Of a DNA stretch of 64,000 nt, positions 6,948-46,691 are shown piece after piece. The DNA is from Cytophagales bacterium (GTDB taxonomy: Bacteria > Bacteroidota > Bacteroidia > Cytophagales > Spirosomataceae): NCBI GenBank assembly GCA_024742395.1, contig JANSYO010000007.1:1-64000 (forward strand), given 5' to 3'. Made by a program: the position numbers and the translations under genes. How positions within the stretch are numbered: position 1 is the stretch's first letter; each line of letters begins with the position of its first letter. The notes beneath the pieces are model-generated. The model ran no database searches, was not told where the DNA came from, and saw only the letters and a program-made list of their open reading frames with translations.

Positions 6948-8184
6948 TAACTACCTTAAATGATTCGTAAATTTCATTTCTGGTGCTGCCGCAATTATCA
7001 AAAGTGTATTCTTTTAAGGTCAAATCCTGTGATCTCTCCACCATTTCATCGGCAATTTGAGGAGTTTCTATGAGTTGATTCACTTTTTGAATAAAGTCTT
7101 CAGGCGTATCAGCTATCATACAGTTTTCTCCATCTATCATTGGTAAGCCTTCAGCTCCGTCAGTGGTACTTACGATAGGCACTCTCCAGGAGATTCCTTC
7201 CAGGATTTTCATTCTCATACCACTCACTATTCTTAATGGCACGATCATGATGGCACCATCAAACGCCTGGGAAAGATCTTCCACAAAGCCCAAAAACTCA
7301 ATATTGGGCTTGTCGATATGAAGTTTTTTAAATTCTTCAGACCATTTTGAAATTATCTGAAATTTAACTTCCGGATGAGCTTTTGAGATTTTTGGCCATG
7401 ATTCTTCTAAGAACCAATTGACGGCATCAAGATTAGGATAATGAGCTTCAGGACCAAGAAACACCAGTTTGTTTTTGAACTTAAACGGCGTATTTAAATC
7501 ATGGTGTTTAAAGCTTATAGGCGAAGGAGAGGTATGAAGTAATTCCTTCTTTACTCCGGCTTCAATTAAATACTGAGTATCTTGTTTTGAAACAGTTAAT
7601 ACTTTGTCGTATTGATTCAAGAGGCTAATTTCAAGGTCTTTGGTGGCCTTTATATGCCACAGATCTCTTAGGGTTTTATTCTTTAAAGTCTGATACTCCA
7701 TTTCCAATCTTTTGTACCTTATTTCATGATGTACAAAAATCTTGGGCAAATTTTTTGGCAATAAATGAATGAGGGCGGCAAAATCGATAAACTCTACCTG
7801 AACCAAGTCATAACTGTCATCTTTTAGTTCATCCTGTATTTGTTCAAGGAAGTCAGGATAGTGGCATCTGCTAAGGTCATTTATGGCTAAATGAGTACGA
7901 GGATAGAAGTAGCCTGGACCATTCCTAAGAATCCTTTGTTTAATACTTAATGCCTGCTTGTAAACAGTTAAAAAGAAGGAATCTGGTTTGTGAGCTGGGG
8001 TAGTGAGGATTTTTACATTAGGCCAGAGCTCCTTTAATGCCTGCTTTTTGTGATCGGGAACGTTAGGGCAAATAAATGTTATCTCATGCAGTTTCCTTAA
8101 ATAATCGATCAGATTAAATGTAAAGGCACTCCCGCCGCTATCGATGGGATATGGAAATACAATAGATATAATCGCAATTTTCAT
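6940..8184 (-). CDS. family 4-type (GT-B) glycosyltransferase
   Basis: A 414-residue GT-B fold protein. The N-terminus IAIISIVFPYPIDSGGSAFTFN contains the Gly-rich acceptor loop typical of GT4 enzymes. The C-terminal half has FKNKLVFLGPEAHYPNLDAV, then IEFLGFVEDL and the donor-site segment IVPLRIVSGMRMKILEGIS, close to the Wzz/stp2-like GT4 proteins of exopolysaccharide loci. It is first in the minus-strand run GT4 - GT2 - GT2 - ribD. A -7 box match lies 78 bp upstream. Confidence 0.87.
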   Translation of the reverse strand: MKIAIISIVFPYPIDSGGSAFTFNLIDYLRKLHEITFICPNVPDHKKQALKELWPNVKILTTPAHKPDSFFLTVYKQALSIKQRILRNGPGYFYPRTHLAINDLSRCHYPDFLEQIQDELKDDSYDLVQVEFIDFAALIHLLPKNLPKIFVHHEIRYKRLEMEYQTLKNKTLRDLWHIKATKDLEISLLNQYDKVLTVSKQDTQYLIEAGVKKELLHTSPSPISFKHHDLNTPFKFKNKLVFLGPEAHYPNLDAVNWFLEESWPKISKAHPEVKFQIISKWSEEFKKLHIDKPNIEFLGFVEDLSQAFDGAIMIVPLRIVSGMRMKILEGISWRVPIVSTTDGAEGLPMIDGENCMIADTPEDFIQKVNQLIETPQIADEMVERSQDLTLKEYTFDNCGSTRNEIYESFKVVNA

Positions 8185-36962: not shown

Positions 36963-37191
36963 ACGAATTGATGGTTCTTGTCTTGCCTGAAGAAAGTGTT
37001 AAATATATTGAAAAATAAATAGATAATTTTTCAACAGTGAAACAATTTGAACTACCTGTGCGTTTAAAGGTCATGTTGTTTCGAATGAAAAGCACGAAGC
37101 TAATTTCGAATCTAACAAATTCCTCCTCTTCACTTCTTCCTCTCCTTGTCATTTACTTTCCATTTCGAACTGATTAGTTTGATCTATTTGT

Positions 37192-37199
37192 TATTTTTG
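37192..37199 (+). promoter_or_regulatory. candidate -7 box of ferritin
   Basis: TATTTTTG (TAnnTTTG), 32 bp before the ferritin ATG. A TTGATCTA stretch upstream (37179-37186) resembles part of the iron-island palindrome but lacks the left half. Confidence 0.35.
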
Positions 37200-37231
37200 A
37201 TCAATTCAAGTTCTTAAAGAAATTAATATTT

Positions 37232-37735
37232 ATGATTAGTGAAAAGATGAGTCAAATGCTCAATGAGCAGTACAATAAAGAAGTTTACTCAGCCAATTTA
37301 TATTTATCCATGTGTTCCTATTTTCTGGATAGGGATTTGGACGGGTTCGCAAACTACTTTAAAGTACAATCTCAGGAAGAGTTACTTCATGCAGAAAAGC
37401 AGTTCGACTATATTCATGAAGTAGATGGTAAGATAACTATGATGGCTATAGATGCTCCACCAGTTGAGTTTGATTCAATAGAAGATTGTTTTGAGCAGAC
37501 GCTGGCTCATGAAAAATTAGTTACTAAAAGTATTTATGGTCTTGTAAAGCAAGCTTTAGAAGAAGGAGATTTTGCAACTCACACCTTTCTGCAATGGTTC
37601 ATAACAGAGCAAGTAGAAGAGGAGGCTAGTGTGAAGGCTTTGCTGATGAAATTACGGATGATAGGAGATAACTCCTCTGCACTTTATTTGTTAAACGATG
37701 AGCTTTTGAAAAGACAATTAGCTCCTGAAGCTTGA
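37232..37735 (+). CDS. non-heme ferritin
   Basis: An FtnA-type iron-storage protein forming 24-mer shells that oxidise Fe(II) and store it as ferric mineral. The 167-residue four-helix bundle shows ferroxidase ligands: Glu in NKEVYSANLYLSM (residue 17), Glu and His in EELLHAEKQFDY, Glu in LAHEKLVTKSI and Glu/Gln in FITEQVEEEASVKALL. There is no haem-binding Met of the bacterioferritin type. It is the first gene of the iron island and is separated from the next by a terminator. I see no full copy of the island's palindrome here, as might be expected if storage is regulated opposite to uptake. Confidence 0.94.
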   Translation: MISEKMSQMLNEQYNKEVYSANLYLSMCSYFLDRDLDGFANYFKVQSQEELLHAEKQFDYIHEVDGKITMMAIDAPPVEFDSIEDCFEQTLAHEKLVTKSIYGLVKQALEEGDFATHTFLQWFITEQVEEEASVKALLMKLRMIGDNSSALYLLNDELLKRQLAPEA

Positions 37736-37761
37736 GCTTGATCCATTCAAAAATGTCATTT

Positions 37762-37790
37762 AAAGCGGCTCAGGCTGCTTTTTTTATTTT
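37762..37790 (+). terminator. intrinsic terminator of ferritin
   Basis: AAAGCGGC pairs with GCTGCTTT (one G-U) around TCAG, followed by a T-rich tail. Confidence 0.8.
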
Positions 37791-37800
37791 TATGGGGTCA

Positions 37801-37819
37801 ATTTAGACTTAATCTAAAT
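37801..37819. promoter_or_regulatory. iron-island palindrome copy 1
   Basis: ATTTAGACTTAATCTAAAT: perfect 7-bp arms (ATTTAGA / TCTAAAT) around CTTAA. It lies 8 bp upstream of the -7 box of the Cys-rich peptide gene, where a repressor would block polymerase. Related copies are at 38082-38100 and 44235-44253. The form resembles DtxR/MntR-type boxes, by inference. Confidence 0.65.
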
Positions 37820-37827
37820 AAATATAA

Positions 37828-37835
37828 TATCTTTG
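37828..37835 (+). promoter_or_regulatory. -7 box of the Cys-rich peptide gene
   Basis: TATCTTTG (TAnnTTTG), 18 bp before the ATG at 37854 and 8 bp after palindrome copy 1. Confidence 0.55.
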
Positions 37836-37853
37836 TGCATCTATTAAAACTTG

Positions 37854-38012
37854 ATGGAGCACTTAACAACAGAATTTTCTACTGAAACGCAAAACGAGGA
37901 GAAGAACCCTTTTTTTTCTACACCTTGGGATAATCAAGGCTGTGTGCTAAAGAAATGCTGCAAAAAGTATAAAAAGAAAGGCAGGCACTGCGGTGGTTGT
38001 CCGAAAAAGTAG
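37854..38012 (+). CDS. 52-residue cysteine-rich basic peptide
   Basis: A short gene that is easily missed. It starts at an ATG 18 bp after an exact -7 box. The N-terminal half is acidic (EHLTTEFSTETQNEEKN). The C-terminal half is rich in Lys and Cys (GCVLKKCCKKYKKKGRHCGG, then CPKK), giving five to six Cys in 23 residues in a C-x4-CC-x9-C-x2-C pattern. No signal peptide. The Cys layout suggests metal binding. It is controlled by the same palindrome as the imelysin and TonB genes, so a role in iron handling is likely but inferred. Confidence 0.75.
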   Translation: MEHLTTEFSTETQNEEKNPFFSTPWDNQGCVLKKCCKKYKKKGRHCGGCPKK

Positions 38013-38044
38013 CCCTCTATCCCCCTAAATTCTTTTAGATAAGC

Positions 38045-38075
38045 TTGTGAATATAATTACTGGCTCATACTTTTG
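38045..38075 (+). promoter_or_regulatory. promoter of the DUF4856-imelysin operon
   Basis: -33 element TTG at 38045-38047, a 20-bp spacer, then -7 TACTTTTG at 38068-38075. Transcription should start near 38082, inside palindrome copy 2. Confidence 0.6.
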
Positions 38076-38081
38076 CGGCCT

Positions 38082-38100
38082 ATTTATAATTGTTCTAAAT
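38082..38100. promoter_or_regulatory. iron-island palindrome copy 2
   Basis: ATTTATAATTGTTCTAAAT matches copy 1 at 15 of 19 positions, including all of the right arm TCTAAAT. It overlaps the predicted transcription start and lies 14 bp before the ATG of the DUF4856 gene. Confidence 0.55.
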
Positions 38101-38114
38101 ACAAATAAAATTAG

Positions 38115-39191
38115 ATGAAAAGAATATTGTTTCTTTTGACTCTTGGCCTGGTGGCTTGTGATAATACAGAAGTTGATAAAGAATTAGTCATACCTGCAAA
38201 GTATGATGGAGCTTCCTATGAAACCAATGCTTCTCTTGAGATTCAAATGACTGAGGCTTTAGCATCAATGTCTGCAGAAATGAAAAAGGGTAGAATAGGA
38301 ACAAAAGTAGATGCTTCCGAAATTGTAAAGTATTTTTCAGTACTCAGAGCTTCTTCATCTGATTATTTTGCCGGATTGATTGATTCTGATTGGATGCCTG
38401 CTTTAATAAAAAACAGTGGTGGACAACTTTTTGACGCCGGAAAACAAGGTGGGCTATATGGCGAATATCTTTTTACGCAGTATGGAATTGAAAATGAGCA
38501 GGTAATTGAGAAGGGATTATACGCAGCCTCCTTTTATAATCAGGCCAGAAAAATTGCAGAAACGGAGAAAACCGCTGCAGCATCAGATAAAATTATAGCT
38601 CTTTGGGGTGCACACCCAGATTTTGCCAACAGTAACAACAGTTCATTACATTCTAACCCAGATAAGTTTATTGCTAATTACATTGCGAGGCGTGATAAAA
38701 ATGATGGTTTAGGTTTTTATACAAATATTCAAAACGGTTTAATTAAACTTCGGGCAGTTAACTCTGCCTCTACAGATTATCCTGCTGAGAGAGCGGAGGC
38801 AATTCAGGAGATTTTTGAAAACTGGGAAAAAGGAAGTGCCGCTACGGCAATCAATTATATTTATGGGGCTTTAGGGAAGTTGTCATCCACAAACCCTGAT
38901 GAGGCTACCATTAGTTCAGCTATGCATTCTTTTTCTGAGGTTCTTGGTTTTATTCTTGGTTTCAGAACAGTAGAAGATAAAATAATTTCTGACGCAGAAA
39001 TTGATGAAATTCTCGTACTACTAAACACACCTGAGGGTCAAACGCCGACTACTCTAAACTTACTTTCTAATCCGGTGGAAGAATTGCCTAAAGTATTACA
39101 GGTTTTATCGAAACTAAAGGCTATATACGGTTTTTCTGATCAGGAAATGGAGGATTTTAAGCAGAATTGGGTTAGCGAGCAAAACAGATAA
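38115..39191 (+). CDS. DUF4856 family lipoprotein
   Basis: A 358-residue lipoprotein (RILFLLTLGLVAC, lipobox Cys about residue 15). The opening of the mature part (VIPAKYDGASYETNASLEIQMTEAL, given here in part) and later GGQLFDAGKQGGLYGEYLF and IIALWGAHPDF agree with DUF4856, a Bacteroidota family of mostly helical surface or periplasmic proteins that I know from iron-regulated loci next to imelysins. Molecular function is unknown. It is the first gene of the operon DUF4856 - imelysin - imelysin - di-heme protein - HTTM and is 2 nt from the next gene. Confidence 0.75.
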   Translation: MKRILFLLTLGLVACDNTEVDKELVIPAKYDGASYETNASLEIQMTEALASMSAEMKKGRIGTKVDASEIVKYFSVLRASSSDYFAGLIDSDWMPALIKNSGGQLFDAGKQGGLYGEYLFTQYGIENEQVIEKGLYAASFYNQARKIAETEKTAAASDKIIALWGAHPDFANSNNSSLHSNPDKFIANYIARRDKNDGLGFYTNIQNGLIKLRAVNSASTDYPAERAEAIQEIFENWEKGSAATAINYIYGALGKLSSTNPDEATISSAMHSFSEVLGFILGFRTVEDKIISDAEIDEILVLLNTPEGQTPTTLNLLSNPVEELPKVLQVLSKLKAIYGFSDQEMEDFKQNWVSEQNR

Positions 39192-39193
39192 AT

Positions 39194-40228
39194 ATGCGGA
39201 TAGTTGTTTTGTTTTTAATAGGCTTCACTTTTTTGTCATGCAATGATTCTACAGATCCTGTAAATGAGGTGAAGTTTGATAGAACGGCCTTTCTTGAGAA
39301 TTATGCTAATAGTTATATAATACCTGGCTTTCAGGAAGCGGCCAACAAAGCTGAAGTGATGCATTTGGCCATTGAACAACTTAATGGCAGCTCAGATTTA
39401 GAAGAAGTAAAACAGCTGTGGAAGGATGCTTATTTATCTTATATAAACGTCTCACAATATAACATTGGTCCTGCTGAAGAAGAAGTACTTACAAAATCTT
39501 TAGTAGAGGAAGTGGCTACTTTCCCGGTGAATATAACTGCCGTAAATGCCAAAATTGATTCAAAAGATTTCAAGTTAAACGACTTCCAACGTGACACCAG
39601 AGGTTTCTTTACCATGGAATACATACTTTTTGAGAACTTTAATGAGTCATCATTACTCTATTTAACTGAAATATCTTCTGATTTAAATTCAAGAATAGCA
39701 GCGGTTAATAAGGAATGGCAAGGTGATTACAAAAGTACTTTTGTGAAAAACGATGGTACCTCCGCCGGAAGCTCTACCTCACAGTTATACAATGAGTTCT
39801 TAAAAAGTTTTGAAAGTCTAAAGAATTTTAAATTGGGCTTACCATTAGGCTTAAGACCTGGACAAACGGCTGCTGTTCCCGGAAATGTAGAAGCTCTGTA
39901 TTCAGGAAACTCTTTGCTTTTTGCTGAGCAACATTTTAAATCTTTGAAGAACTTCTGGTTAGGCTCAAATCAAAAGGGCTTTAAGGATTATCTTCTATCA
40001 GTAGAAGGTGGAGAGGCGTTAGTAAGTAGTACAGAAACTCAAATACTGGCCGTAGAAAATGCTTTTTCCTCAGTTAGTCCTTCTGATTTTAGTTCTGAGA
40101 ATCTCGATGGCAATGTCTCTTTGATTGATCTGCATACTGAACTTCAAAAACTTACCAGATACTTTAAAAGTGAAATGTCTTCACTATTGGGAATTGCTAT
40201 AACTTTTAGTAGCGGAGACGGCGATTGA
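39194..40228 (+). CDS. imelysin-family (M75) lipoprotein, divergent copy
   Basis: A 344-residue lipoprotein (VVLFLIGFTFLSC). The imelysin fold is suggested by a helical pair-repeat with VKQLWKDAYLSYINVSQYNI and FQRDTRGFFTMEYILFEN in the first half, and GLPLGLRPGQTAAVPGNVEA and FKDYLLSVEG in the second. The family's GxHxxE motif reads GFFTME, so the His is missing. Imelysins (IrpA, EfeO M75 domain) are periplasmic iron-uptake proteins, and peptidase activity is doubtful. Between DUF4856 (2 nt) and the second imelysin (18 nt). Confidence 0.85.
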   Translation: MRIVVLFLIGFTFLSCNDSTDPVNEVKFDRTAFLENYANSYIIPGFQEAANKAEVMHLAIEQLNGSSDLEEVKQLWKDAYLSYINVSQYNIGPAEEEVLTKSLVEEVATFPVNITAVNAKIDSKDFKLNDFQRDTRGFFTMEYILFENFNESSLLYLTEISSDLNSRIAAVNKEWQGDYKSTFVKNDGTSAGSSTSQLYNEFLKSFESLKNFKLGLPLGLRPGQTAAVPGNVEALYSGNSLLFAEQHFKSLKNFWLGSNQKGFKDYLLSVEGGEALVSSTETQILAVENAFSSVSPSDFSSENLDGNVSLIDLHTELQKLTRYFKSEMSSLLGIAITFSSGDGD

Positions 40229-40246
40229 TAATATATAAACACAAAA

Positions 40247-41392
40247 ATGAAAAAAGCGTTACTCTCTTTATTCCTTATCGCAGCTGTCTTCTCATGCAAA
40301 GAAGATGATTTGGAACCAACTCAAGTTAGCAAAACAGAGGTTTTGACCACTTATGCCGAAATTGTCTATGCAAATTATGAAGATGCCGTAAGTACAGCAA
40401 AGGTTCTTCAAACAGCTATAAATGATTTTCTTGCCGCACCTTCTGAAGAAGGTTTGATTAAGGCTCGTCAGGCTTGGATTGACTCAAGAAACCCTTATGG
40501 GCAAACAGAGGCTTTCAGGTTTTATGGTGGTCCTATTGATTCAGAGGATGGGCCTGAGGGTCTTATTAACGGCTGGCCGCTTGATGAAAGTTATATTGAC
40601 TATGTAGAAGGAAATGCTAACAGCGGTATAATTAATGATGCTGTTAGTTACCCGGTGATAGATGCACAGACGCTTATTGACGCCAATGAAAATGGTAGTG
40701 AAACCAATCTAAGTACAGGATACCATGCCATTGAATTTTTACTTTGGGGGCAAGATCTTTATGAGGATAGCCCGGGTAAAAGAGCTTACACCGATTATAC
40801 AACGGCTCCAAATGCGGCACGAAGAGCTGAATATTTAAAAGTTGTTACCGATCTGTTGATTGAAAACTTAACAGAAGTTATGGATGCATGGGCTCCTTCA
40901 ACGGCCTATAGAGCTAGCTTTATTGCTGGAGGCGATGAATCTATTGCTAAAATGTTTAGAGGGATTGGTGCACTGAGTAAAGGTGAATTGGCAGGAGAAA
41001 GAATGACTGTAGCTCTTGCAAATAAAGATCAGGAAGACGAACATTCTTGCTTCAGCGATAATACAAAAGCAGACATTGAGATGAATTTCAGAGGAATTAG
41101 AAATGTATATGTAGGAGCTTACGAAAGGGTAGATGGTTCACAGGTTACGGGTGCTTCTCTTGCTGATTTAGTGAATGAGAAGGATTTGGTAAAGAACGAA
41201 ACTATATTAAACCTTCTTTCTGCTACTTTTGGAAGCATTATTGGGATTCCCCAGCCATTTGATTCAGCTTTACGAGCTGGAGATCCTGGCAAAAAAATTG
41301 AAAACACTATCATTAATCTTAGAAACCTAAGTGATGCTATTGTGGATGGTGCGTTGCAACTAGGCATTCAGGTTAATGCAGAGTTAGATTAA
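40247..41392 (+). CDS. imelysin-family (M75) lipoprotein
   Basis: A 381-residue lipoprotein (LLSLFLIAAVFSC). It keeps the complete GxHxxE motif in STGYHAIEFLLWGQD, preceded by ARQAWIDSRNPYGQTEAFRF and DDxxGPEG-type acidic loops. The second half contains FRGIGALSKGELAGERMTVA and CFSDNTKADIEMNFRG, the duplicated half of the bilobed imelysin fold. By comparison with EfeO and IrpA it probably binds Fe in the periplasm. Next gene starts 12 nt on. Confidence 0.93.
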   Translation: MKKALLSLFLIAAVFSCKEDDLEPTQVSKTEVLTTYAEIVYANYEDAVSTAKVLQTAINDFLAAPSEEGLIKARQAWIDSRNPYGQTEAFRFYGGPIDSEDGPEGLINGWPLDESYIDYVEGNANSGIINDAVSYPVIDAQTLIDANENGSETNLSTGYHAIEFLLWGQDLYEDSPGKRAYTDYTTAPNAARRAEYLKVVTDLLIENLTEVMDAWAPSTAYRASFIAGGDESIAKMFRGIGALSKGELAGERMTVALANKDQEDEHSCFSDNTKADIEMNFRGIRNVYVGAYERVDGSQVTGASLADLVNEKDLVKNETILNLLSATFGSIIGIPQPFDSALRAGDPGKKIENTIINLRNLSDAIVDGALQLGIQVNAELD

Positions 41393-41404
41393 TTACTGTT
41401 TAAA

Positions 41405-42772
41405 ATGAGATTGAGAATTCTCTTATTTTCCATTGTTGGTTTACTTAATTGTAAACCTGAAGATGTAGTACTGGAGTATGAAGAGAATGAAGAACTCTCA
41501 GGTGGTAGCTTAACCACTTTTGACTTGGGGGAGAATGCTTTTGGGCATTCTCCTTCTAATTTAAGCTTTGAGGAAGAAAACGACTTTGTAATAGGTAATT
41601 CTTTTTTTAGATCAAACTGGACCTCGGCTCCAGCCTCGGCAACTGCTCGTGATGGTCTGGGTCCAATATTCAATGCCAGTTCGTGTGGCGGTTGTCATCC
41701 AAAAGACGGACGAGCCGCTCCTCCGGAAGTATATGGAGAACCTTTAAGTGGATTACTGATTAGACTCAGCAGCATTGCCAATGTAGATGATCCAATCTAT
41801 GGTGGACAACTACAAGATAAAGGGCTTCTAGGGGTTAAGCCCGAAGCAAAAGTGGCTGTCTCATACACTGAAATTCCTGGTAAATATGCAGATGGAACCA
41901 GTTACTCCTTAAGAAAACCGAACTATGAGTTTTCTGAATGGGCTTACGGTGAAATAAGCCCGGGTTTTTTATTCTCTCCGAGAGTAGGGAATCAACTGGC
42001 CGGAGTGGGTTTACTTGAAGCAATACCTTCTCAAACGATTCTGGCTCTGGCCGACGAAGACGATCTGAATAAAGATGGAATAAGCGGAAGAGCTAATTTT
42101 GTTTGGAACGAACAAAAACAGATAACCGAATTAGGTAGGTTTGGATGGAAAGCAAATCAGCCTGATTTGCTGCAACAAACTGCCTCTGCTTTTAATGGTG
42201 ACATTGGGATTACTACTTCCCTATTTATGAAAGACCATACAACTTCAGCACAATCAGAGCTTCAGTCTTTGCCTAATGGTGGCGAACCTGAAATATCTGA
42301 CGAAAATCTGAAAAGAGTTGTTTTTTATCTTCAAACATTAAGTGTGCCTGCCCGCCGAAATGTTAAAGATCCAGCAGTACTTAGAGGTAAAACTCTTTTC
42401 ACAGAATTAAAATGTGCTTCATGCCACATTCCATCATTTAATACAGAGAGTTCTAATGCTATATCGGTATTGAATAATCAAACCATACGACCTTACACTG
42501 ACTTACTATTGCATGATATGGGGGAGGGTCTGGCAGACAACAGACCAGATTTTCTGGCCAATGGGAAAGAATGGCGTACGACTCCGTTATGGGGCATAGG
42601 TATGATTAAGACGGTAAATGATCATACCTTTTTACTACATGATGGCAGAGCCAGAAATATAGAAGAGGCGATATTGTGGCATGGGGGTGAAGCCGAAAGT
42701 TCTAAACAGAAATTCCTTTCTTTGTCTGCTGAAAATAGAAAAGATCTTTTGACATTTTTAGAAAGCCTTTAA
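41405..42772 (+). CDS. di-heme c-type cytochrome lipoprotein (DUF1111/thiol-oxidoreductase family)
   Basis: A 455-residue lipoprotein (ILLFSIVGLLNC). Two CxxCH haem c sites are visible: FNASSCGGCHPKDGRA near residue 98 and LKCASCHIPSF near 340, plus LLHDMGEGLADNRPDF and TTPLWGIGMI segments typical of the di-heme oxidoreductase (DHOR) family. Such genes are found beside imelysins in many iron-regulated operons of Gram-negative bacteria. It probably passes electrons to or from iron in the periplasm. No other cytochrome lies nearby. HTTM follows 2 nt later. Confidence 0.9.
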   Translation: MRLRILLFSIVGLLNCKPEDVVLEYEENEELSGGSLTTFDLGENAFGHSPSNLSFEEENDFVIGNSFFRSNWTSAPASATARDGLGPIFNASSCGGCHPKDGRAAPPEVYGEPLSGLLIRLSSIANVDDPIYGGQLQDKGLLGVKPEAKVAVSYTEIPGKYADGTSYSLRKPNYEFSEWAYGEISPGFLFSPRVGNQLAGVGLLEAIPSQTILALADEDDLNKDGISGRANFVWNEQKQITELGRFGWKANQPDLLQQTASAFNGDIGITTSLFMKDHTTSAQSELQSLPNGGEPEISDENLKRVVFYLQTLSVPARRNVKDPAVLRGKTLFTELKCASCHIPSFNTESSNAISVLNNQTIRPYTDLLLHDMGEGLADNRPDFLANGKEWRTTPLWGIGMIKTVNDHTFLLHDGRARNIEEAILWHGGEAESSKQKFLSLSAENRKDLLTFLESL

Positions 42773-42774
42773 GA

Positions 42775-44196
42775 ATGGCTAATATTAACCAATTCCTTTT
42801 TAAAAATGTGCCCATTTACCCATTGGTCACTTTTAGAATGGTCTTGGGATTTCTAATGTTTGTCTCAACCCTTCGATTTATTTATTTGGGCTGGATAGAA
42901 GATCACTATATCAACTCAAAATTCCAGTTCAAGTTTTATGGTTTTGAGTGGGTACAACTTTTGCCTCCTTTTTGGATGTATGCATTGCATGGACTCATGC
43001 TGCTGGCATCCTTATTTGTACTATTAGGCTTCTTATACCGTTGGTCTTCAATCCTGCTGTTTTTGACTTTCACTTATCTTGAATTAATTGACCTCACGTA
43101 TTATCTAAATCATTATTACTTTATCTCACTGGCATGTTTACTAATGATTTTTTTGCCAGCTAACAGGAATTTAAGTTTGGATGCCTGGTGGCAACCGAGT
43201 ATTAAAACTAACCAAGCCAGAGCCTGGCACATAAATATTCTAAAGTTTCAAATTTTTGTCGTTTACTTTTATGCCGGTATAGCCAAAATAAACTCAGATT
43301 GGCTAGTAAATGCTTTGCCACTAAAAATTTGGCTGCCAGCTAACGATAAAGTCCCTCTGTTGGGCTGGCTTTTTGTGCAGGACTGGGCTCCTTATGTATT
43401 TAGTTGGGGAGGTATGTTTTATGATACTTTCATTATTTTTTTTCTCCTCAATGCTCGCACAAGGCCTATCGCATACATCTTCGTTTTGGTTTTCCATGCC
43501 ATCGTAGGGATACTATTTCAGATTGGTGTTTTCCCGGTGGTAATGATGGGTATTACCTTGATCTTCTTTTCAGATAAATGGCATTTACAATGGCAACTGG
43601 CACTACAAAGTTTCTTAAGAAAAGGAGCTGAGATTTTAAGACTAAATTGGTTTAAAAAGAAAGCGATAAACGGTGATTTAAATAAAGGAAAATTAACAGT
43701 AGACACTGGTCTGGAAGAAGCTTCAATGATTTCAAAACCAGCCTTTTGGGGCTTTCACTATATTTTTCTAACCATCTATGTGTTGTTTCAACTACTTTTT
43801 CCAATCAGGTATGTGCTTTATCCCGGCAATCTTTTTTGGACAGAGGAAGGGTATCGGTTTAGTTGGAGAGTGATGTTAATGGAAAAGGCAGGAACTGCCA
43901 CTTTTTATATTAAAGATGCTAAAACGGGTAGAGTAGGGATTGTCAATAACAGCGAATTCTTAAACCTTCATCAAGAGAAGCAAATGGCATTTCAGCCGGA
44001 TATGATACTTCAATTTGCCCACTTTTTGGGTAATTATTATAAGTCCCAAGGAATGCATAACCCGGAAGTAAGAGTAGAAGCTTTTGTTACACTGAATGCC
44101 AGACCGGGAAGACTTTTGATAGATCCCGAGCGAGATCTTATGAAAATAGAGGATAGCTGGGTACATAAAGATTGGATTATTCCATTTAAGGATTAA
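42775..44196 (+). CDS. HTTM-domain (vitamin K-dependent gamma-carboxylase-like) membrane protein
   Basis: A 473-residue integral membrane protein. The N-terminal ~280 residues hold six or more helices, with VTFRMVLGFLMFVSTLRFIY, ELIDLTYYLNHYYF and FQIFVVYFYAGIAKINSDWL as HTTM signatures shared with gamma-carboxylase. A further helix lies near 325-345, followed by a soluble C-terminal domain of ~130 residues (LFWTEEGYRFSWRVMLMEK then AGTATFYIKDAKTG). It is the only polytopic membrane protein in the iron operon and so is the best candidate for a permease or membrane-bound modifying enzyme in it. The activity is unknown. Confidence 0.88.
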   Translation: MANINQFLFKNVPIYPLVTFRMVLGFLMFVSTLRFIYLGWIEDHYINSKFQFKFYGFEWVQLLPPFWMYALHGLMLLASLFVLLGFLYRWSSILLFLTFTYLELIDLTYYLNHYYFISLACLLMIFLPANRNLSLDAWWQPSIKTNQARAWHINILKFQIFVVYFYAGIAKINSDWLVNALPLKIWLPANDKVPLLGWLFVQDWAPYVFSWGGMFYDTFIIFFLLNARTRPIAYIFVLVFHAIVGILFQIGVFPVVMMGITLIFFSDKWHLQWQLALQSFLRKGAEILRLNWFKKKAINGDLNKGKLTVDTGLEEASMISKPAFWGFHYIFLTIYVLFQLLFPIRYVLYPGNLFWTEEGYRFSWRVMLMEKAGTATFYIKDAKTGRVGIVNNSEFLNLHQEKQMAFQPDMILQFAHFLGNYYKSQGMHNPEVRVEAFVTLNARPGRLLIDPERDLMKIEDSWVHKDWIIPFKD

Positions 44197-44234
44197 ATGA
44201 TGAGCAAGATCATTTAAAAAAGTACTTAAAATTT

Positions 44235-44253
44235 ATTTGGACTTGATCTAAAT
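44235..44253. promoter_or_regulatory. iron-island palindrome copy 3
   Basis: ATTTGGACTTGATCTAAAT matches copy 1 at 17 of 19 positions. It contains the -33 TTTG and ends 3 bp before the -7 box of the TonB receptor promoter. Confidence 0.65.
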
Positions 44254-44264
44254 AGGTACTTTTG
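44236..44264 (+). promoter_or_regulatory. promoter of the TonB-dependent receptor
   Basis: -33 TTTG (44236-44239), a 17-bp spacer and -7 TACTTTTG (44257-44264). It is embedded in palindrome copy 3, so a bound repressor would cover it. Confidence 0.7.
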
Positions 44265-44279
44265 TCGTCTGAAATTATC

Positions 44280-46691
44280 ATGAGGTACTTAACTGCAATA
44301 ATTTATCTTCTTCCTTTCTTGAGTTTTGCTCAGCAAGAAAACTTAAAAGGAAAAGTGTTTTCCGAGTCAAAGGAAGCTTTGGCTGATGTGGTTATTACTG
44401 TCAGCTCACAAAAAGACGTTTACTTCTCAAAAGAGGATGGCTCTTTTATAATACCTCAATTAGCATTAGGTAATTACATACTGAACTTTCAGTTGTTAGG
44501 TAAAGAGAACAAGTCGCTTGAGTATGTTCATAAAGCTGGATCTTCAATACTTCTTGTAGAAATGACTGAAGATGGGTTTACTTTAGAAACTGTTACCGTA
44601 AAAGCTAAAGCAGATAATGATTTTGGTCGTACTCACCTTAAATCCATTGAAGGAACTTCTATTTATGAAAGTAAGAAGTCTGAGGTGGTTGTACTGGAGG
44701 ATATCAATGCAAACCTATCTACCAATAACGCCAGACAGGTATATGCCAAGGTGACAGGACTGAATATTTGGGAAAGTGACGGAGCTGGCTTGCAGCTGGG
44801 GATAGGAGGTCGAGGATTAAGCCCAAACCGTACGGCCAACTTCAATACTCGACAAAACGGCTATGATATTTCAGCGGATGCTTTAGGATATCCTGAAAGT
44901 TATTATACACCGCCTACAGAGGCTTTAAGAAAGATAGAGGTTATTCGAGGGGCGTCTTCACTTCAGTACGGAACACAGTTTGGCGGGATGTTAAATTTCG
45001 TTTTTAAGAAGGGGCCATCTGATAAGAAGATTGAGCTTACCAGCAGGCAAACGGCGGGGAGCTGGAATTTCTTTGGTTCTTTTAACAGTTTAGGAGGCAC
45101 TGTAGGAAAGCTAAACTATTACGCATTTTATCAGCACAAACAAGGTGATGGCTGGAGGCCCAATTCTGGATTTAATCAGGACAATGCTTACATTGATTTA
45201 ACCTATAAGTTTACTGAGAACTTTAAGGCAGAATTTAATTATACACACAGCAATTACACCGCTCAGCAAGCCGGTGGATTAACTGATGCTATGTTTAATG
45301 CTGACCCAAGACAGTCAGTTAGAAGTAGAAACTGGTTTGATGTCAAATGGGATTTAGCTGCTTTGACTCTGGACTGGGAACTAAGCCCCAAGACTAAAAT
45401 CAATTCCAGGACTTTTGTGCTTGATGCAGGCAGATCTTCCCTTGGGAATCTTGAAAGGATCAATGTGGCAGATTTGGGCGGTAACAGAACGTTGATTGCA
45501 GGAAAATTTGAAAACATTGGCAATGAAACCCGTTTGCTTACAAGATATAGTCTCGGTAACCAATATGGAGCTTTTTTAATTGGCAGTAGATATTACAAAG
45601 GATACACTACAGCAAAACAAGGTGATGCCTCTGCTGGTGATGATCCTGATTTCTCTTTCCTGAATCCTGAATATCCTGAGAATTCTGACTTTCTTTTCCC
45701 CAATACCAATATCTCTTTCTTTGTTGAAAATATATTTAACCTTTCTGAAAAGTTGAGTATTACACCCGGGCTTCGGTATGAATACATCAATACGGCGTCA
45801 GAAGGTTATTTCAGGCAGCGAGTTTTTGATTTTGCAGGTAATCTGGTCTCAGACGTTAAGAAAACAGAAAATGACTCTCGGAAAAGAGCTTTTGTAATTG
45901 CCGGAATAGGAGCCTCTTTCAGGCCAAATGAGAATCTGGAGATTTACGGCAACTTATCTCAAAACTACAGAGCCATAAACTTTACAGATCTTCGCATTGT
46001 GAATCCTAACTTTGCTGTAGACCCCGACCTCAAAGATGAAAAGGGATTTACAGCTGATTTTGGGTTTAGAGGTAAGAAATCAAATTATTTAAGTTATGAT
46101 TTTACTCTATTCTATGTTGCATACAATGGTCGCATAGGTCAAATTTTGAAGGCAGATCAGCCACCACTTTATCTTGACTACAGGCTACGTACCAATGTGG
46201 CCGATGCCAGAAACATAGGTTTAGAGTCTTTTGCAGAATTGGATATACTAAAGATAGTCAGGCCATCTACAAAAAAATCACTTTCAATTTATCTTAACGG
46301 AGCGGTTATAGATGCTAAATATTATCATACAGATGAGACCAGCATCAAAGACAAAAAAGTAGAAATGGTGCCTCCAGTTATGGTTCGTACAGGGCTGAGT
46401 TATAAATCCGGAGGCTTTGGAATGTCTATACAATGGAGCTACGTTAAAGAACATTTTACTGATGCTACCAATGCTGTCAGAACAGCTACAGCCGTGGAGG
46501 GCATTATCCCAACTTACCAAATAGCTGACTTATCCGCATCTTACATCTGGAGAATGTTTACTCTGGAAGGAAGCGTAAATAATCTGTTCAATGAAATGTA
46601 CTTCACCAGAAGAGCTGAAGCCTATCCTGGCCCTGGAATTATTCCATCAGACGGAAGAGGTTTTTATTTGACTTTACAAGTGAAGTTATAG
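44280..46691 (+). CDS. TonB-dependent outer-membrane receptor (FecA-like)
   Basis: An 803-residue receptor. I use the ATG at 44280, which opens a signal peptide (MRYLTAIIYLLPFLSFAQ); the upstream TTG at 44262 lies inside the -7 box. A carboxypeptidase-regulatory-like domain (~20-95, LKGKVFSESKEALADVVITV) precedes the plug (LRKIEVIRGASSLQYGTQFG then GMLNFVFKKG) and a 22-strand-type barrel ending GRGFYLTLQVKL. The plug lacks an obvious signalling extension. In this island it probably imports a ferric chelate. The box-bearing promoter fits iron repression. It faces the SLC12-like gene with only 7 nt between stops. Confidence 0.93.
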   Translation: MRYLTAIIYLLPFLSFAQQENLKGKVFSESKEALADVVITVSSQKDVYFSKEDGSFIIPQLALGNYILNFQLLGKENKSLEYVHKAGSSILLVEMTEDGFTLETVTVKAKADNDFGRTHLKSIEGTSIYESKKSEVVVLEDINANLSTNNARQVYAKVTGLNIWESDGAGLQLGIGGRGLSPNRTANFNTRQNGYDISADALGYPESYYTPPTEALRKIEVIRGASSLQYGTQFGGMLNFVFKKGPSDKKIELTSRQTAGSWNFFGSFNSLGGTVGKLNYYAFYQHKQGDGWRPNSGFNQDNAYIDLTYKFTENFKAEFNYTHSNYTAQQAGGLTDAMFNADPRQSVRSRNWFDVKWDLAALTLDWELSPKTKINSRTFVLDAGRSSLGNLERINVADLGGNRTLIAGKFENIGNETRLLTRYSLGNQYGAFLIGSRYYKGYTTAKQGDASAGDDPDFSFLNPEYPENSDFLFPNTNISFFVENIFNLSEKLSITPGLRYEYINTASEGYFRQRVFDFAGNLVSDVKKTENDSRKRAFVIAGIGASFRPNENLEIYGNLSQNYRAINFTDLRIVNPNFAVDPDLKDEKGFTADFGFRGKKSNYLSYDFTLFYVAYNGRIGQILKADQPPLYLDYRLRTNVADARNIGLESFAELDILKIVRPSTKKSLSIYLNGAVIDAKYYHTDETSIKDKKVEMVPPVMVRTGLSYKSGGFGMSIQWSYVKEHFTDATNAVRTATAVEGIIPTYQIADLSASYIWRMFTLEGSVNNLFNEMYFTRRAEAYPGPGIIPSDGRGFYLTLQVKL

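Follow-up and report, generated by a model that had tools for sequence, protein, structure and literature searches.

Probable Fur boxes at three promoters of an imelysin iron-uptake island in a Cytophagales bacterium, and a new-looking microprotein family

Three 19-bp inverted repeats in a 64-kb stretch of Cytophagales DNA are very probably Fur boxes, through which Fur would repress an iron-uptake island. The stretch (the window; positions 1 to 64,000 of contig JANSYO010000007.1) is part of a 5.54-Mb genome in 440 contigs. The first-pass annotation had attributed the three promoters to a single metal-responsive repressor, perhaps "DtxR/MntR-like rather than Fur-like." The promoter position of the boxes, the iron genes downstream, and the conservation of the sites all support a single repressor of this kind, but the preference for DtxR does not survive. 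The box is enriched with or without DtxR, it is scarce in genomes without Fur, and Fur has been reported to bind this sequence in Riemerella anatipestifer. Together, these observations argue that the regulator is Fur. An imelysin iron-uptake operon of this kind occurs in many Bacteroidota, and the regulator indicated for it is Fur rather than DtxR. The mechanism of Fur regulons is already known; what looks new is a microprotein family encoded behind one of the boxes.

Three boxes at promoters of the island

The boxes and the promoter elements beside them, the latter read by eye, are as follows.

37801..37819, no strand: putative Fur box 1, ATTTAGACTTAATCTAAAT, promoter of the Cys-rich microprotein gene; box start 53 bp 5' of the ATG
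37828-37835, + strand: TAnnTTTG (-7-type) promoter element, TATCTTTG, 8 bp after copy 1
38068-38075, + strand: TAnnTTTG promoter element, TACTTTTG, 6 bp before copy 2
38082..38100, no strand: putative Fur box 2, ATTTATAATTGTTCTAAAT, 5' of the lipoprotein-imelysin operon; box start 33 bp before the ATG
44235..44253, no strand: putative Fur box 3, ATTTGGACTTGATCTAAAT, 5' of the TonB receptor gene, the weakest of the three; box start 45 bp before the ATG
44257-44264, + strand: TAnnTTTG promoter element, TACTTTTG, 3 bp after copy 3

The first-pass annotation had located and transcribed the three copies exactly. Its identities also hold: copies 1 and 3 agree at 17 of 19 bases, copies 1 and 2 at 15, and copies 2 and 3 at 15, with the right arm TCTAAAT invariant in all three. 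A TAnnTTTG box does lie near each copy, at distances of 3 to 8 bp. The repeat had been called a palindrome, and it is an inverted repeat but an imperfect one, since 16, 14, and 12 of the 19 positions match their own reverse complement.

Within 2 mismatches of ATTTAGANNNNNTCTAAAT (ATTTAGA-N5-TCTAAAT), the 64 kb contains the three boxes only, a single one at each promoter. A first-order Markov model built on the window predicted 0.073 matches on average at 1 mismatch or fewer, and three sites at that level occurred in 0 of 300 simulations, which bears out the earlier claim that a chance origin is unlikely. The Poisson P for three boxes in 6.5 kb is about 7e-8, a value that flatters the boxes because the pattern was taken from those very sites. 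A looser 17-position pattern with 3 mismatches allowed gave 4 matches (in 3 places, one on both strands) versus 1.09 expected, and 2 of 100 shuffles reached 4 matches.

The repeat matches a Fur box established in the phylum. The available text on R. anatipestifer gives its Fur box as ATTTAGAATTATTCTAAAT, which purified Fur shifts in an electrophoretic mobility shift assay (PMC5609570), and describes Mn(II)-dependent binding of Fur to a promoter holding ATTTAGAATTATCCTAAAT (PMC10986502). The boxes of that species are said to lie no more than about 100 bp from the start codon (PMC5609570, PMC10986502); the window boxes likewise lie at promoters near start codons. Table 4 of PMC5609570 includes, as putatively Fur-regulated, four genes with neighbouring locus tags (RAYM_09779 to 09794); one encodes a TonB receptor and another an imelysin lipoprotein, and the remaining two are for a vitamin K-dependent gamma-carboxylase and a hypothetical protein. 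Genes related to those of the island thus respond to fur and to iron in that species. By analogy with this system, we infer Fur binding and repression in the present organism. Boxes 1 and 2 are within 2 mismatches of the palindrome-completed consensus, ATTTAGAATNATTCTAAAT.

Fur repression of an iron-uptake island is an ordinary mechanism. When iron is plentiful, Fe(II)-loaded Fur would occupy each inverted repeat and block RNA polymerase, sitting just upstream of TAnnTTTG at boxes 1 and 3 and just downstream of it at box 2, and there would be no transcription. When iron is scarce, Fur would be released and three units would be transcribed together: the Cys-rich microprotein gene, the lipoprotein-imelysin-dihaem-HTTM operon, and the TonB receptor gene.

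The boxes are conserved in relatives. The nearest named relative in the operon search was Jiulongibacter sediminis (locus L097), whose homologue of the first operon gene is 62% identical; genome G002, listed as a congener, gave a match with the same identity and contig coordinates. Congener L097 carries boxes at all three promoters: GTTTATAATTAATCTAAAT at L097:7611 ahead of the peptide gene (3 mismatches), boxes at 7899 (1 mismatch) and 7961 (3 mismatches) at the operon promoter, and a box at L097:11551 5' of the TonB receptor gene, in the same place as in the window (3 mismatches). Of 14 loci of relatives with a first-gene homologue, 11 contained the half-site pattern within 2 mismatches at some point of the 3-4-kb locus, two of those 11 homologues being weak. 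In a larger set, which partly overlaps the 14 loci and from which 2 of 74 were dropped for too little upstream sequence, a box lay in the 400 bp upstream of the operon's first gene at 3 mismatches or fewer in 47 of 72 loci versus 3 of 72 in the reversed control, and at 4 mismatches or fewer in 55 versus 11. Six of the 72 loci are not from Bacteroidota by title, and none of these six had a box within 5 mismatches.

The geometry of the promoters was described in 80 loci that had been preselected for the box (80 of 81 segments passed), so that these counts do not measure enrichment. No farther than 40 bp from the box centre, TAnnTTTG was counted 48 times and a scrambled word 2 times. In a number of relatives (L097-L200), the best box is accompanied by a second one at a distance of about 32, 38-44, or 60-66 bp, roughly 3, 4, and 6 helical turns; the spacing counts are inflated by close relatives. 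Second boxes at such set spacings suggest that several Fur dimers bind at these promoters.

Fur or another regulator

The genome encodes candidates of both kinds. The Fur orthologue lies on contig C279 directly before a purA-like gene, has HDH and CxxC motifs by eye, and matches solved Fur proteins (best 9ire, E 5e-19). One DtxR homologue was above the family cut-off (C65:18854, E 3.1e-17), and it matches solved metal-dependent regulators including DtxR, IdeR, MntR, ScaR, and SloR. ScaR and SloR are manganese regulators. The 3.2-kb locus around the DtxR homologue gene has no box closer than 4 mismatches. A literature search for DtxR in Bacteroidetes returned nothing relevant by title.

We asked which of the two proteins the box follows across 197 genomes of the class, counting matches against a reversed control and treating genomes as independent despite their shared ancestry. 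A genome was scored as having Fur at E <= 1e-30 to the Fur of this genome and as lacking it with no match or E above 1e-20; DtxR was scored by PF01325 at E <= 1e-8. Genomes with both proteins (158) had 677 box matches versus 87 in the control. Those with Fur and without DtxR (26) had 89 versus 15, and some were rich in boxes (15 versus 0 in G300, 12 versus 3 in G229, and 10 versus 2 in G060). Ten genomes with DtxR and without this Fur had 8 versus 2, with one genome accounting for half of the 8, and two genomes with neither had 0 versus 0. One genome with an intermediate Fur match had 1 box versus 0. The mean number of boxes per genome was 4.16 with Fur and 0.67 without. Thus, DtxR is not needed for the box, since the enrichment persists without it, while box counts are low without this Fur. 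DtxR as the sole regulator was therefore rejected, and the earlier preference for a DtxR/MntR-like over a Fur-like protein fails on this enrichment and on the identity of the consensus with the published Fur box of a relative.

A set of 148 genomes sampled from the phylum pointed the same way. The six genomes of family f23 had 0 boxes versus 2 in the control. Five of them have no match to this Fur and the sixth (G075) has a weak one (E 9e-12); five keep DtxR.

Several observations weigh against the assignment to Fur. Five further Fur-family genes are present in this genome (six in all), the 3.4-kb locus of the fur gene itself has no box within 2 mismatches, and box 3 is 4 mismatches from ATTTAGAATNATTCTAAAT (counted by eye), although it is near variants such as ATTTGGATTTAGTCTAAAT found in relatives. 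The contrast between genomes with and without Fur is mainly one between families, because only three families hold both kinds; their means were 1.0 vs 0.57, 0 vs 2.33, and 0 vs 0.67, and in one of the three the genome without Fur was not poorer in boxes. At least one box match was found in 4 of 12 genomes without Fur. Genome G225 is an exception to the tracking of Fur by the box, having 4 boxes versus 0 in the control without any Fur-family gene (PF01475). Conversely, 21 of 184 class genomes with Fur have no box, including all 7 of family f85, and outside it a strict box is absent from many genomes that do have a Fur match. Genomes with Fur and without DtxR also have somewhat fewer boxes than those with both (mean 3.42 vs 4.28; two-sided P 0.046, which ignores kinship among genomes). 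In the 13 families holding genomes with and without DtxR, the mean without DtxR fell below the mean with it in 7, exceeded it in 4, and equalled it in 2. Finally, the -Fe/+Fe ratios of the R. anatipestifer genes named above reach about the same height in the fur mutant and the wild type (PMC5609570, Table 4).

Two of these observations may have explanations of their own. G225 is 99% complete, and its boxes could reflect a recent loss of Fur, an assembly gap, or another binder. For the somewhat lower box number without DtxR, a shared or linked role of that protein is conceivable, as is an effect of genome size.

The alternative that survives best is compatible with Fur control: Fur and a second iron-responsive regulator may share these promoters, which we consider possible but not the likelier case. 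The iron response that persists in the R. anatipestifer fur mutant, at about the wild-type level by Table 4 of PMC5609570, means that another iron regulator may act there too, and the available text on Bizionia reports that an imelysin-like transcript drops on deletion of the MerR-like MliR (PMC9478572). The two boxes in a number of relatives' promoters could be read in the same way, but both boxes of a pair could be Fur sites.

It is improbable that a DtxR/MntR-type repressor binds the boxes. The single DtxR homologue in the genome and the smaller number of boxes in genomes with Fur and without DtxR would fit such a repressor, as would the iron response left without Fur in R. anatipestifer. 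However, the box is strongly enriched in the 26 genomes that have Fur and lack DtxR, and it is hardly found in the ten with the reverse combination. The operator of DtxR and IdeR is TTAGGTTAGCCTAACCTAA, and the half-site spacing of our box, compared by eye, is unlike it.

It is equally improbable, in our view, that the main binder is another Fur-family protein, of the PerR or Zur type. Six Fur-family genes leave room for one, and the box resembles the PerR box, which is TTATAATNATTATAA. However, family f23 is boxless though 5 of its 6 genomes keep other Fur-family genes, the genes downstream of the boxes serve iron uptake, haem, and Fe-S assembly, and it was Fur itself that was used in the gel shifts described in the available R. 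anatipestifer text. That the boxes are chance AT-rich repeats, a reading to which the lack of a genome-wide excess of the loose 14-position motif at 2 mismatches might lend itself, is practically discounted by their conserved position ahead of the same genes and by the simulations.

Across the class, most of the genomes sampled are enriched in a single Fur box consensus, so that iron regulons should be readable from sequence there. The Fur of Porphyromonas is described as a divergent subfamily in the available text of PMC6613475, so that the box cannot be taken for granted throughout the phylum.

The island and further boxes in the genome

The genes of the island are as follows.

37232..37735, + strand: ferritin gene, adjoining the microprotein gene and lacking its own box at 2 mismatches or fewer
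37854..38012, + strand: gene for the 52-aa Cys/Lys-rich microprotein (stop included), of a conserved family
38115..39191, + strand: 358-aa lipoprotein-like protein, first gene of the operon; no Pfam or NCBIfam match
39194..40228, + strand: imelysin-family (Peptidase_M75) protein, E 4e-26
40247..41392, + strand: imelysin-family (Peptidase_M75) protein, E 1.1e-69
41405..42772, + strand: di-haem oxidoreductase (DHOR), E 1.3e-109
42775..44196, + strand: HTTM / vitamin K-dependent gamma-carboxylase-like membrane protein (family match)
44280..46691, + strand: TonB-dependent receptor (family match)

The 358-aa protein had been named DUF4856, a name that found no backing: it matched no family in Pfam (E <= 0.001) or NCBIfam (E <= 0.01). 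An Rfam scan of 37100-44700 gave no match.

How common the motif is at random sites of the genome depends on its stringency. At 2 mismatches or fewer, ATTTAGANNNNNTCTAAAT is in no excess (86 versus 105 in the reversed control), whereas ATTTAGAATNATTCTAAAT is found 9 times versus 1, copies 1 and 2 being among the 9. The first-pass annotation had named a motif common at random intergenic sites as what would refute it; that condition thus holds for the loose pattern and fails for the consensus. At 1 mismatch or fewer, ATTTAGANNNNNTCTAAAT occurs in 15 places, a count that has no control at that level; three of these are the window boxes. One further site is flanked by hemA (glutamyl-tRNA reductase) and a gene for a histidine kinase. 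Two TonB-receptor operons, one of which includes a PepSY protein, are each preceded by a pair of sites 61-62 bp apart, and another site is 45 bp 5' of a sufS-like gene whose start is read as GTG. Boxes thus stand ahead of iron-acquisition, haem, and Fe-S genes, and hemA, the two additional TonB-receptor operons, and the sufS-like gene probably belong to the same regulon in this genome.

Some sites are inside unrelated genes. Four in coding sequence look like chance and were left out of the regulon: C301:5594 and those on C351 and C367 are within open reading frames (ORFs), and C301:48224 is apparently coding (by eye). Two more are uncertain members. The C112 site is between Glu/Leu dehydrogenase-like and NhaA-like genes, named by eye, and the C345 site is upstream of a multihaem cytochrome c gene. 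There, at L029 (C345:167924), a consensus box stands about 50 bp before the cytochrome gene, which heads a putative alternative complex III operon (named by eye).

The Cys/Lys-rich microprotein and known systems

The less expected part of the finding is a strongly constrained microprotein, expected in iron starvation and sometimes encoded beside ferritin. Homologues were sought within the order and found at E <= 0.01 in 50 of 241 genomes, the window's own included; 30 of the 51 matches were examined (L171-L200). All 30 loci hold the consensus pattern CVxKKCCKKYKxKGKHCKKCP, and Met1, Cys35, Cys36, Lys38, Cys46, Cys49, and Pro50 are invariant in 28 aligned members. Over a 22-codon core, the ratio of nonsynonymous to synonymous differences per site (pN/pS) was 0.01, 0.02, 0.04, and 0.08 in four homologue groups, with synonymous sites near saturation. 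Such low values indicate that the microprotein is translated and under strong purifying selection.

From 400 bp upstream to 60 bp downstream of the microprotein ATG, a Fur-like box was found at 4 mismatches or fewer in 28 of 30 loci (1 of 30 in the reversed control) and at 3 or fewer in 20 (0 of 30 in the control). In many loci the box starts 51-59 bp 5' of the ATG.

The family looks new, as we matched it to no described family in Pfam, NCBIfam, PHROGs, or PDB. The window member and 28 members searched in Pfam gave only three single-member hits (E 0.045-0.07), which we took as noise; the window member alone had no match in NCBIfam or PHROGs; and a profile of the family gave nothing convincing against PDB. 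A literature search for the string KKCCKKYKK had no match, and a word search returned only papers unrelated by title. The structure model has one helix and a mean predicted local distance difference test score (pLDDT) of 62, too weak to interpret.

Of the 30 microprotein loci, each of 3 kb, 5 from three families also contain a ferritin gene, versus 0 of 63 other loci of similar size that were not matched for lineage. Ferritin adjoins the microprotein, on either side, in L097, L161, L181, L184, L190, and L193; however, most homologues are not beside ferritin. L161 has two boxes, then the microprotein, then a 111-aa gene, then ferritin. That gene (L161:14277-14609, no Pfam match) and a 110-aa ORF at L181:504-836 look similar by eye, and both are beside the microprotein and ferritin, in two lineages.

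Adjacency to ferritin, Cys content, and the Fur box together prompt a guess at an iron-release role linked to ferritin. Under Fur control in starvation, the microprotein might act on or with ferritin, for example, as a metal or Fe-S partner that releases iron, a counterpart of unrelated sequence to Bfd (bacterioferritin-associated ferredoxin). We regard this as an unlikely, though not far-fetched, proposal. Bfd is small and under iron-starvation control, and its gene is sometimes beside a ferritin-type gene; the microprotein shares the small size, at least four Cys, the expected starvation control, and the occasional ferritin neighbour. It differs from Bfd in being Lys-rich, in its Cys pattern CC-x(8-10)-C-x2-CP, in its want of any match in the databases searched, and in homologues that mostly have no ferritin beside them.

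Imelysin LruB (NCBIfam NF047655) has the imelysin domain in common with the operon. However, the score here is 175.5 bits versus a curated cut-off of 850, and this operon encodes two imelysins, a di-haem oxidoreductase, and an HTTM protein.

The closest known system is the Fur regulon of R. anatipestifer, which belongs to another order of the class (by kinship). Fur binding was shown by experiment there and is predicted here, and hemA, sufS, and the microprotein are not among the genes of Table 4 (PMC5609570). Nevertheless, the two systems have the same 19-bp consensus, and imelysin, gamma-carboxylase-like, and TonB-receptor genes are found in both.

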